Source of the DNA: Bartonella krasnovii
Lineage (GTDB): Bacteria > Pseudomonadota > Alphaproteobacteria > Rhizobiales > Rhizobiaceae
DNA length: 64,000 bases
Direction: 5' to 3'
NCBI RefSeq assembly: GCF_003606345.3
Contig: NZ_CP031844.2
Span: 1,967,001-2,031,000, forward strand
Shown: piece by piece, positions 2,300 through 43,013 of the stretch
How positions within the stretch are numbered: the stretch's first letter is position 1
Layout of the letters: each line of letters opens with the position of its first letter
Notes under the pieces: model-generated
What the model was told of the DNA's origin: nothing
The model's input: only the letters and a program-made list of their open reading frames with translations
Databases searched by the model: none
Made by a program: the position numbers and the translations under genes

Positions 2300-3433
2300 A
2301 TGCAAACCAAAACCGTTACTGTTAAACTGGACAAGCGCTGTTACGATATCATCATTGGACCCAATCTCATTGAGCAAGCAGCTTTACAAATTAAGCATTC
2401 TCTTCAGAAAACGGATTTTCATCAAACACGTTTGGCAATTGTTACAGATAGCAATGTTGCACCTCTCCATTTGGATCCATTACAAGCAGAATTAACCAAA
2501 AATAAAATCCATACTGTCCCTATTATTGTAGAAGCAGGGGAACAATCAAAGTCATTTTCAACCTTGCAAACTGTCATCGATCAAATTCTTGCCGCACGCT
2601 TAGAAAGAGGTGACTGTGTGATTGCTTTTGGTGGCGGTGTCATTGGAGATCTAGCAGGATTTGCCGCAAGTATGATACGCCGCGGCATGAATTTCATTCA
2701 GATGCCCACAACGCTTCTTGCACAAATTGATTCTTCTGTTGGTGGCAAAACAGGCATCAACAGCCGATATGGTAAAAATCTTATTGGTGCTTTTTATCAA
2801 CCGCAATGCGTTATTGCTGACACATCTGTTCTTGATACACTCCCACCACGCCAATTTCGCGCAGGTTATGCAGAAATGGTCAAATATGGTCTTATTAACC
2901 AACCTGAATTCTTTGCATGGCTTGAAAAAAACGGACAAAAAATTTTCTCCAATGGCCCCATGCGAACAGAAGCCATTGTTCGCTCATGCCAATTTAAAGC
3001 AGCCATAGTCGCCCGCGATGAATACGAAACAGGAGAGCGCGCACTCTTAAATCTCGGTCATACCTTTGGACATATGCTTGAAACAGCAACCTCTTATGAT
3101 TCTAAGCGTTTAATTCACGGTGAAGCTGTAGCAATTGGAATGATTCTGGCACATCAATTCTCTTCACAACTGAATCTATGTGACCCCACACTCATAGATC
3201 GTATCGAAACACACCTTAAAGCTGTAGGTTTACCTACACGGTTAAAGGATATCCCAGGAGATCTACCAAATGTTGAAACATTGATGACTCTCATTGCTCA
3301 AGATAAAAAAGTTTCACAAAACAATTTGACCTTTATTTTAACACGAGGACTTGGCCAATCATTTATTGCAAAAAATATTCCATCAGATGCAGTTTTATCC
3401 TTTTTGGAACAAAAATTAACAGAAATTCGTTAA
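2300..3433 (+). CDS. aroB: 3-Dehydroquinate synthase
   Basis: This 377-residue cytoplasmic enzyme converts DAHP to 3-dehydroquinate, the second shikimate-pathway step, using NAD and a divalent metal. The NAD-binding glycine stretch [14 protein letters not shown] and the following [18 protein letters not shown] are diagnostic. The metal-binding histidines are in [11 protein letters not shown] and [12 protein letters not shown]. Length is normal for the family. It follows aroK with 17 nt between them, so the two are likely one transcript. In many rhizobia a CBS-domain or HlyC-type gene follows; here aroB is followed at once by an intron-containing tRNA gene. Confidence 0.96.
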
Positions 3434-3493
3434 TTCATATTGAATATAATTGATTCGTTTTTATACTTCTATTAAAGGAATAGTTATGATGAT

Positions 3494-3798
3494 GTCTGCG
3501 TAGCTCAGTAGGATAGAGCACAGGATTCCTAAAGTAATTGGGCGCCTTGAGGAGAAATCCTCAAAGCGGATCTGCTCAAATTCGGGGAAAGCTTCATGGG
3601 CAAAGCTATATGCCAATCCCGAGCCAAGCCTCTCCTCACATGAGAGGAAGGTGTAGAGACTGAACGGGCAGCACCTAAAAGGCGCAAGCTTTATGGTGAA
3701 GAGACAGTCCAGACCACAAACAGCTTTTAACGCTGGCGGTGAAAACCGAAGTGGTATGAATCCTGGGGTCGCAGGTTCGAATCCTGCCGTAGACACCA
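3494..3798 (+). tRNA. tRNA-Arg(CCU), interrupted by a group I intron
   Basis: The two exons (3494-3530 and 3759-3798) join into a complete cloverleaf. The acceptor strands GTCTGCG and CGTAGAC pair through all seven positions with one G-U. The D stem is GCTC/GAGC. The anticodon stem is CAGGA/TCCTG around the loop TTCCTAA, which gives anticodon CCU. The T arm is GCAGG-TTCGAAT-CCTGC, and CCA is encoded at 3796-3798. The intervening 228 nt enter directly after the anticodon's third base. Standard tRNA searches may miss it or report a fragment. It would decode AGG. Confidence 0.93.
3531..3758 (+). ncRNA. Group I self-splicing intron in the tRNA-Arg(CCU) anticodon loop
   Basis: The 5' exon ends in U and the intron ends in G, as group I splicing requires. 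A P1 helix can form between CCU|AA (3528-3532) and UUGGG (3538-3542), placing a U-G wobble at the 5' splice site. Next comes a perfect 7-bp hairpin capped by a GAAA tetraloop (3547-3564). A further hairpin, CCTCTC/GAGAGG, lies at 3629-3647. The segment around 3700-3720 (AGACAGTCCAGACCACAA) resembles the conserved P7 core, and CAGC/GCTG at 3721-3735 could be P9. No homing endonuclease is encoded. A group I intron at this tRNA-Arg(CCU) site is known in Agrobacterium, so this is probably the orthologous small IC3-type intron. The subgroup is an inference. Confidence 0.88.
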
Positions 3799-3837
3799 TC
3801 TTATTAAGACAAATCACTTTTCATATAGGGAAGCGTT

Positions 3838-4221
3838 ATGAAAAAAACTCTACAAATTTTAGGATTTTTTTCCTCTTTATTATTTTTCAATGTTAGCAGC
3901 ACCTTCGCTGCTGCTTTAGTCATTGAAGTGTCAGGTAATCCAGAAAAACAAACCATAACCTATCAATGTGAGATGGGTACAAATAAAGAACGCGTTGAAG
4001 CAACCTATTACAACGCTGACGATATTTCATTGGTTGATTTTAAATGGCAAGGCGATCGTATTATCGCTGCGAATGTTATTGCTGCTTCTGGGGCAAAATA
4101 TGTAGGGGAGCAGTATATCTGGTGGGAGAAAAATAAAGAAGTAACACTTTATGATCTTACCCAAGATCCAGAAGAAAAAAAGCCCATCCTCTGTAAGGAT
4201 GAATCACTGTTGTTATTTTAA
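3838..4221 (+). CDS. MliC/PliC-type C-type lysozyme inhibitor, copy 1
   Basis: This 127-residue protein carries a Sec signal peptide (hydrophobic residues 7-24, probable cleavage after Ala25 or Ala26) and should reach the periplasm. The mature part fits the MliC domain: YQC at 42-44, alternating strands, then AASGAKYVG (82-90) and WWEKNKEVTL (95-104). A second Cys at 119 probably pairs with Cys44. The family binds the active site of C-type lysozyme and protects peptidoglycan from host lysozyme. The usual WWTKG is changed to WWEKN here, so activity is less certain than for copy 2. No lipobox is present, so it is soluble (PliC-like). The next gene is a close paralogue. Confidence 0.78.
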   Translation: MKKTLQILGFFSSLLFFNVSSTFAAALVIEVSGNPEKQTITYQCEMGTNKERVEATYYNADDISLVDFKWQGDRIIAANVIAASGAKYVGEQYIWWEKNKEVTLYDLTQDPEEKKPILCKDESLLLF

Positions 4222-4238
4222 ATAACTGAGGAAATATC

Positions 4239-4631
4239 ATGAAAAAAATTGCTTTTATTGTAGGATTTTTTATTTCTTTCAGCCTACCGCTATTCAATTC
4301 ACTTAATGCTTTTGCTGGCTCTTTAGTTATTGAGGTGCCAGATGATCCAGAGCCAACAACAGAAGTTACGACCTATCAATGCGGAACAGGTACAAGTAAA
4401 GAGCATGTTGAAGTAACCTATCTCAATGCGGGTAGTATTTCACTTGTTGATTTCAAATGGCAAGAAAAGCGCATCATCGCTTCCCGCAGCATAAGTGCTT
4501 CTGGAGCAAAATATATGGGAGGACCCTATATATGGTGGACAAAAGGAAACGAAGCTACGCTTTCTGATCTCATTAATGATCCAGAAGAAAAAAATCTTAT
4601 TCAATGTGTAGAAGAACAAAAAACAGAATAA
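4239..4631 (+). CDS. MliC/PliC-type C-type lysozyme inhibitor, copy 2
   Basis: A 130-residue paralogue of the preceding gene, starting 17 nt after it with GAGGAAAT as a ribosome binding site. It has a signal peptide (residues 1-27, cleavage probably after Ala27), YQC at 46-48, SASGAKYMG (86-94) and the intact WWTKGNEATL (99-108) typical of MliC. Cys48 and Cys123 are the likely disulfide. The inferred role is periplasmic inhibition of host C-type lysozyme, useful for a blood- and cell-invading bacterium. Copies 1 and 2 share long blocks (SLVDFKW, ASGAKY, DPEEK) and clearly arose by tandem duplication. The gene converges on phaG with only 16 nt between the stops. Confidence 0.82.
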   Translation: MKKIAFIVGFFISFSLPLFNSLNAFAGSLVIEVPDDPEPTTEVTTYQCGTGTSKEHVEVTYLNAGSISLVDFKWQEKRIIASRSISASGAKYMGGPYIWWTKGNEATLSDLINDPEEKNLIQCVEEQKTE

Positions 4632-42305: not shown

Positions 42306-43013
42306 ATGCGTGAAGTTATTTTTGATACAGAAACAACAGGTTTAGATAAAGAAAAAGATCGCATAATCGAAATCGGTTGTGTTGAGATGGTTGATCGTTA
42401 TCTTACAGAACGCCGATTCCACGTTTATTTAAATCCACAAGGTGTTATTATTCCTGATGAAGTTGTAGCAATTCATGGATTGACCAATGAACGCCTAAAA
42501 AATGAAAAAAGCTTTAGCGATATTGCTGATGAATTTTTGGAGTTTATCAATGGTGCAACAATGATTGCCCATAATGCAAGTTTTGATATAGGTTTTATTA
42601 ATGCAGAATTAAAACGCGTCAATAAGCCGCTTATCAGTGTTGATAATATTCTTGATACATTGGCTATGGCGCGGCGTAAATTTCCTATGGGTCCTAATTC
42701 TCTTGATATTTTATGTAAACGTTTTGGAATTGATAATAGTCATCGTGTTCTTCATGGCGCTTTGCTTGATGCGGAGATTTTAGCCGATGTTTATATTGAA
42801 CTGATTGGTGGAAAGCAGGGTGTATTGGGTTTTGAGAACAAAAGAAATGTTAATGAACATATCAAAAATGATAAAGATACGCCTTATACAGTTAAATCTC
42901 GTCTACAAGCTTTACCTTCAAGATTGAGTGCACAGGAAATAAAATTGCATGCTGATTTTATCAATAAAATGGGTGAAAAAGCTCTGTGGAATAATTTCAA
43001 AATTCATGAATAA
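42306..43013 (+). CDS. dnaQ: DNA polymerase III epsilon subunit (proofreading exonuclease)
   Basis: A 235-residue DEDDh 3'-5' exonuclease. Exo I is FDTETTGLD with Asp7 and Glu9, Exo II is AHNASFDIGFI, and Exo III has HRVLHGALLDAEILA with His and Asp. The C-terminal tail should bind the polymerase alpha subunit. It supplies proofreading for the replicative polymerase. It ends the ppsR-dnaQ unit and is followed by a 329-nt spacer that contains a hairpin and a very short ORF. Confidence 0.95.
   Translation: MREVIFDTETTGLDKEKDRIIEIGCVEMVDRYLTERRFHVYLNPQGVIIPDEVVAIHGLTNERLKNEKSFSDIADEFLEFINGATMIAHNASFDIGFINAELKRVNKPLISVDNILDTLAMARRKFPMGPNSLDILCKRFGIDNSHRVLHGALLDAEILADVYIELIGGKQGVLGFENKRNVNEHIKNDKDTPYTVKSRLQALPSRLSAQEIKLHADFINKMGEKALWNNFKIHE

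Follow-up and report, generated by a model that had tools for sequence, protein, structure and literature searches.

Group I introns in the tRNA-Arg(CCU) genes of alpha-proteobacteria, including Agrobacterium, were reportedly described by Reinhold-Hurek and Shub in 1992, and Paquin is said to have argued in 1999 for horizontal movement of such introns. The tRNA group I intron of Azoarcus, which is compact like the one analysed here, resides in a different host tRNA, which we take to be tRNA-Ile(CAU). Crystal structures of the Azoarcus intron are reported in PMC3984707, and the introns reported for IOLA are located in 23S rRNA. For Bartonella bacilliformis, PMC7717549 describes BbgpI, a group I intron in tRNA-Arg(CCU) at coordinates c42404-42711, which is spliced in vivo and self-splices in vitro.

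The intron found in the window, i.e. in the whole 64-kb stretch of Bartonella krasnovii DNA analysed here, adds a further member to this known family; its orthologue within the genus has been characterised, and the finding is mostly ordinary. It is almost certainly a small self-splicing group I intron without an endonuclease gene, located in the anticodon loop of a tRNA-Arg(CCU) for which the genome yielded no second gene. The sequence used for comparison with B. bacilliformis was L012, whose coordinates agree within 2 bp with those in PMC7717549; in genome G050 the gene is located at 42403-42709 on the minus strand. Genus, tRNA and, by extraction, insertion site are the same as for the window's gene. 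The L012 intron has 230 nt compared with 228 nt, the exons differ by one base, and the aligned stretch is 84.9% identical. Splicing has been demonstrated for BbgpI, whereas it is predicted for the window's intron. The likeness to the Agrobacterium introns is one of description, i.e. the host tRNA is the same and the family is that described in PMC7717549.

The split tRNA-Arg(CCU) gene

An earlier note on this DNA had claimed a tRNA-Arg(CCU) gene with a complete cloverleaf that is split by 228 nt, and the gene was found exactly where it had been placed (Table 1). A finder that assembles tRNAs stem by stem joined the two exons, 3494-3530 and 3759-3798, to a 77-nt tRNA with the anticodon CCU, in which all stems are fully paired (acceptor stem seven, D stem four, anticodon stem five, and T stem five pairs). 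Splicing had been proposed to run from U|A to G|A; the junctions U3530|A3531 and G3758|A3759 agree with this and give the anticodon loop UUCCUAA. The finder demanded a U before the intron and a G at its end, and the place of this 3′-terminal guanosine (omega-G), G3758, is fixed by the cloverleaf. An alternative "AUG" cut at another position of the loop, which came from the first version of the finder, was set aside because it yields neither an arginine tRNA nor an arginine anticodon. Both the host, tRNA-Arg(CCU), and the insertion between nucleotides 36 and 37 are those of the alphaproteobacterial tRNA-Arg(CCU) intron family. The intron may belong to subgroup IC3.

A covariance search with the Rfam group I model, as the earlier note had proposed, gave a match of RF00028 at 3518-3730 over the full model length (54.4 bits, gathering score 50, E 4.7e-11). 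RF00028 was the sole Rfam family above its cut-off within the 64-kb window, and all other Rfam matches near the gene were below theirs. A scan for promoters and terminators returned nothing above chance, a promoter-like site upstream being at chance level. No homing-endonuclease gene typical of a mobile intron was seen in the 228 nt, where the sole listed ORF of at least 100 aa is antisense, an open frame of 118 aa that covers the split tRNA on the minus strand (window 3461-3817).

The expectation that the gene is easily missed by annotation was confirmed, as ARAGORN calls zero tRNAs in the 64-kb window; according to the authors of tRNAscan-SE 2.0, that program was not built to detect such introns. 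With the split gene missed by ARAGORN, the genome appears to be devoid of its only dedicated decoder of AGG. Further tRNA-Arg genes, with the anticodons ACG, CCG, and UCU, are among the 37 Rfam tRNA matches of the genome, a list that contains neither Ala(UGC) nor Ile(GAU) and is therefore an incomplete census. A second, intact tRNA-Arg(CCU), which would have weighed against the earlier reading, was found neither among these matches nor in a search of the genome with the joined exons, which returned the two halves of the gene and nine weaker matches, eight of them on other isoacceptors or other tRNAs.

Table 1. Positions of the split gene, its drawn helices and its upstream neighbour, and loci of related introns in other hosts. 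Percentages are the fractions of paired cells in the alignment of 86 introns.
Feature	Position or loci	Strand	Remarks
aroB, 3-dehydroquinate synthase	2300-3433	+	Pfam; upstream neighbour in most Bartonella loci examined (synteny)
tRNA-Arg(CCU) 5′ exon	3494-3530	+	ends at anticodon U36
Group I intron, 228 nt	3531-3758	+	ends in omega-G 3758; RF00028 54.4 bits
tRNA-Arg(CCU) 3′ exon	3759-3798	+	encoded CCA at 3796-3798
P1	3528-3532/3538-3542	+	U3530-G3540 at the 5′ splice site; guide GGG 3540-3542; 99.3%
P2 hairpin, GAAA loop	3543-3568	+	both-side changes in 10 of 10 drawn pairs; 88.5%
P3	3572-3577/3666-3671	+	100%; both-side changes in 2 of 6 pairs
P4	3582-3586/3618-3622	+	invariant across 86 sequences
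P5; P5a	3591-3592/3612-3613; 3596-3599/3606-3609	+	100%; 83.0%
P6; P6a	3624-3625/3650-3651; 3629-3634/3642-3647	+	100%; 91.8%
P7, G-binding helix	3658-3662/3705-3709	+	100%; both-side changes in 2 pairs
P8	3672-3698, base 3672-3675/3695-3698	+	four foot pairs hold in 86 of 86
P9	3713-3717/3751-3755	+	96.5%; no pair changed on both sides
P9.1; P9.2 (GAAA loop)	3721-3735; 3737-3748	+	93.0%; 100%
tRNA-Leu(UAA) on plasmid pCTX-M3, NC_004464.2	L156, 2948-3246		
Lys(UUU) hosts	L276, L280, L282-L285, L288		
Lys(CUU) hosts	L238, L239, L295		
Thr(CGU) hosts	L287, L290		
Leu(CAA) hosts	L278, L279, L286, L292		
Thr(GGU) hosts	L083, L085, L088, L089, L093, L095, L096, L112; L151-L153		guide fits Thr exon

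Structure and covariation of the intron

The helices P1 to P9, together with P5a, P6a, P9.1, and P9.2, were drawn on the sequence of the window, in which all drawn pairs are standard pairs. For comparison, 86 of 91 extracted introns were aligned; those omitted were three duplicates and the two aberrant rows L076 and L101. Thirteen loci for which the first finder found no acceptable host were left out of the alignment (L064, L074, L080, L087, L090, L092, L094, L109, L119, L126, L129, L141, and L149). For the 66 pairs of the structure, 92.7% of 5531 cells are paired, compared with 80.0% in shuffles, and sliding the partners by one to three columns lowers the pairing to 28.3-44.9%. Changes on both sides were observed for 43 of the 66 pairs. 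The covariation score is 0.377, compared with a shuffled mean of 0.148, and was equalled in none of 500 shuffles; the structure was drawn on one of the aligned sequences, and kinship among the rows inflates this comparison with shuffles. Folding of the single sequence gave an energy z of −3.39, with one of 100 shuffles folding as well.

The P3-P8 core, on which the earlier note had staked its reading, is present with its P3/P7 pseudoknot, and P3 and P7 covary with two pairs each that changed on both sides. One of the P7 pairs shows an exchange of G-C for A-U in 24 of the 86 introns. P4 is invariant and therefore neutral as evidence for the drawn fold. In the upper part of P8, two of the four drawn pairs fail in 63 and 61 of the 86 rows, respectively. 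The 7-bp hairpin with a GAAA loop at 3547-3564, which had been noticed before as fitting a group I core, turned out to be part of P2, and the segment AGACAGTCC at 3702-3710, noticed along with it, contains the 3′ strand of P7.

P1 exists as previously drawn, including the U-G pair at the 5′ splice site. This pair is found in 86 of 86 introns; the U was demanded by the finder, the partner G was not, and the independent evidence in P1 consists of the partner G and the remaining guide letters only. The first pair of P1 is C-G in 78 and G-C in eight of the 86 introns, and the second is C-G in 59, U-A in 19, and G-C in eight. The two pairs before the splice site differ with the host: both are C-G in Arg(CCU) introns and both are G-C in Thr(GGU) introns, and Leu(UAA) introns have C-G followed by U-A.

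Conservation and inheritance within Bartonella

The intron is present in all 61 sampled Bartonella genomes. RF00028 matches 60 of them, 51 above the cut-off, and the last one (G033) matches at the DNA level over the whole 305 bases at 84%, which rules it out as an intron-less genome. Inspection of the loci of 38 out of 62 Bartonella genomes (the 61 and G565), 37 by script and L064, a normal split tRNA-Arg, by eye, showed the anticodon CCU and the identical insertion site in every case. Across the 37 loci the intron length ranges from 220 to 253 nt, and the exon pair is identical in 12, the window's own included.

The upstream aroB gave a long match at 30 of the 37 Bartonella loci, pieces only at four (L002, L005, L006, and L008), and none at three (L004, L016, and L062); the split tRNA is retained in all seven loci with a fragmentary aroB or none found. 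Outside of Bartonella, eight loci have aroB at this place (L124, L127, L130, L132, L135, L140, L145, and L146), and the remaining 18 distinct Arg(CCU) loci that were inspected lack it. Intron distances and aroB distances are correlated, with r values of 0.87 for the 37 loci with a near-complete aroB, 0.93 for 29 Bartonella loci, and 0.80 for 25 core Bartonella loci (permutation p 0.0001 each). Downstream of the split gene, two tandem paralogues (window 3838-4221 and 4239-4631) are 59% identical, contain an MliC domain (lysozyme-inhibitor family), and have by eye a signal-like start; no match to them was found in the flanks of L031, L063, L065, and L125.

At 29 aroB loci outside the window's genome, the flank of 1.5 kb was inspected. 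L184, from a 1.9-Mb genome of another genus of the family, carries an intact, intron-less tRNA-Arg(CCU) just downstream of aroB, and therefore the site exists empty in kin. L178 and L197 contain an intron core by pattern, L174 was missed by the core pattern, yet its genome, G510, carries the intron, and the other 25 flanks have neither an intact tRNA-Arg(CCU) nor an intron core.

For a tree of the 86 introns, the exon and guide columns were removed. On the window's side of a 99/94 branch, in a tree for which the bootstrap had not settled, there are 43 rows, all Arg(CCU), while the other side holds 16 further Arg(CCU) rows together with the Leu and Thr rows. The window's intron thus groups by sequence with other tRNA-Arg(CCU) introns, as is characteristic of the family. 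The Bartonella rows are not a single clade, as two long branches of other genera, L124 and L132, are interspersed with them, and five rows from two other genera share the Bartonella side. All eight Thr(GGU) rows cluster together (99/95) next to Leu(UAA) rows, and the tree requires no more than two changes of host.

Inheritance of the intron within Bartonella and its near kin is supported by these results. The earlier suggestion of an ancient, inherited element stands for Bartonella and its nearest kin, with their common aroB neighbour and with intron distances that track those of aroB. For the family as a whole it is not supported, as an Arg(CCU) intron occurs there patchily, in 32 of 297 genomes, and Paquin reportedly argued for horizontal movement.

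Splicing and alternative explanations

AGG accounts for 13 of the 11,076 codons in 25 window ORFs and is used less than any other arginine codon. This rarity, the presence of a tRNA-Arg(UCU) gene in the genome, and an RF00028 score only modestly above the cut-off would all be compatible with decay of the intron and death of the tRNA gene, i.e. a core that is still recognisable after splicing was lost, with AGG being read by tRNA-Arg(UCU) alone. However, all drawn pairs of the intron are intact in the window, the exons pair faultlessly, and all 61 Bartonella genomes sampled have kept the intron, even where the neighbouring aroB is fragmentary or not found, and we regard decay as very improbable. 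The same retention, compared with just 27 Arg(CCU) introns among the 292 genomes of the family outside Bartonella (four more matches had no assigned host), could be ascribed to a regulatory role of a functional intron, e.g. an AGG decoding that depends on GTP or magnesium, which would be the reason why it is kept in Bartonella. Yet universal presence in Bartonella need not indicate selection, because sister species share a common ancestry, and we regard such a role as improbable.

Introns of tRNA genes that are cut by proteins are usually located close to the position directly 3′ of the anticodon. The window's intron sits directly 3′ of the anticodon, as it might if it were removed by a protein tRNA endonuclease of the archaeal kind. 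This is hardly credible for an intron of 228 nt that has the complete fold of group I and lies on a bacterial chromosome, and the orthologue of which is published as self-splicing.

For the self-splicing group I intron that we favour, the precursor RNA would fold into P1 to P9, a guanosine bound in P7 would attack after U3530 in P1, and the freed 5′ exon would then attack after omega-G 3758; the ligated exons would form a 77-nt tRNA by which AGG is decoded. Judged from group I biochemistry and the published orthologue, the RNA of the window itself very probably is spliced.

Related introns in other tRNA genes

A covariance model of the core, R1, was built from 54 of the 86 rows; of the genomes sampled, it matches 51 of 297 in the family and 49 of 385 in the class. 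The tRNA finder placed the 51 family matches in Arg(CCU) (32, five of them Bartonella) and Leu(UAA) (15), leaving four with no host assigned. The 55 class loci besides the window's were distributed over Leu(UAA) (16), Arg(CCU) (8), Lys(UUU) (7), Thr(GGU) (5), Leu(CAA) (4), Lys(CUU) (3), and Thr(CGU) (2), in addition to a doubtful one (L277) and nine without an assigned host, some of which are cut by contig ends and one of which (L226) is an Arg(CCU) just under the threshold. Brute-force joining of candidate exons scored by ARAGORN produced many false tRNAs and was replaced by the stem-by-stem finder. In a control for its last, stricter version, and for that version only, 216 off-centre windows gave a best score of 25 and none of at least 26; this control is somewhat lenient, with one centre per control window compared with every core motif at the real loci.

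The alpha-proteobacterial tRNA-Leu(UAA) introns have the same core and a DNA identity of 67-80% to the window's intron, many of the matches being partial. They differ in being cut after nucleotide 34 instead of 36 and in a guide that fits the Leu exon. Where cuts were tied, the one giving a conventional anticodon loop was chosen, and the exact cut in Lys(UUU) is ambiguous because of a run of U. Of the four Leu(CAA) loci, three did not pass a simple check of whether the guide fits. Acuticoccus is among the Thr(GGU) hosts, with a split gene by the finder at L152 and L153 and by pattern only at L154; the underlying pattern scan also returned L150 and L155. Across the intron family, a change of target tRNA goes with a change of the guide sequence, which makes the family a natural series. 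Searches of open-licence papers brought up no account of introns in Thr or Lys tRNA genes or in plasmid-borne hosts, and the Thr and Lys hosts may well be published or present in databases. In another family of the order, contig G227:C36 has two strong group I matches (L074 and L109) 1.5 kb apart, for which the finder gave no convincing host tRNA.

A tRNA-Leu(UAA) relative on plasmids

When plasmids were searched for distant matches to the window's gene, 1272 records were returned, the best matches being at about 72%. In the three records that were inspected (L156-L158), the match is a tRNA-Leu(UAA) gene with a group I intron of 211-214 nt beside the resistance gene aac(3)-IId. No annotation covers the gene in two of the records and a hypothetical protein does in CP033563.1, according to a plasmid gene table that describes itself as incomplete. 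The nearest chromosomal relative found is the gene of a family member, with 95% identity over 299 bases; in a sister genome, the similarity to the plasmid stretch runs 167 bases further upstream (86% over 471 bases).

In a near search of 72,556 plasmid records 1280 matched, 1257 of them with at least 80% of the tRNA-Leu(UAA) gene. Of the 1808 bases that span the tRNA and aac(3)-IId, at least 80% are present in 1230 plasmid records, and 2381 have any match to them. The plasmid-type gene was also found in 635 of 5426 complete E. coli genomes, in 624 of them with at least 80%, and no annotated feature lies underneath among the 10 matches listed. No near match to the window's own split gene was found in the E. 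coli genomes.

With the hosts placed by our scans, i.e. Arg(CCU), Leu(UAA), Leu(CAA), Thr(GGU), Thr(CGU), Lys(UUU), and Lys(CUU), there is an even chance that this ribozyme family moves between alphaproteobacterial tRNA genes, refitting its guide, and that its Leu(UAA) branch travelled with aac(3)-IId onto clinical plasmids. If so, many E. coli would bear an unannotated, foreign and probably self-splicing tRNA gene, and the gene would be a pointer to an alphaproteobacterial origin of the DNA stretch linked to aac(3)-IId. Matches in phages numbered three, all of them partial and two from the same phage.
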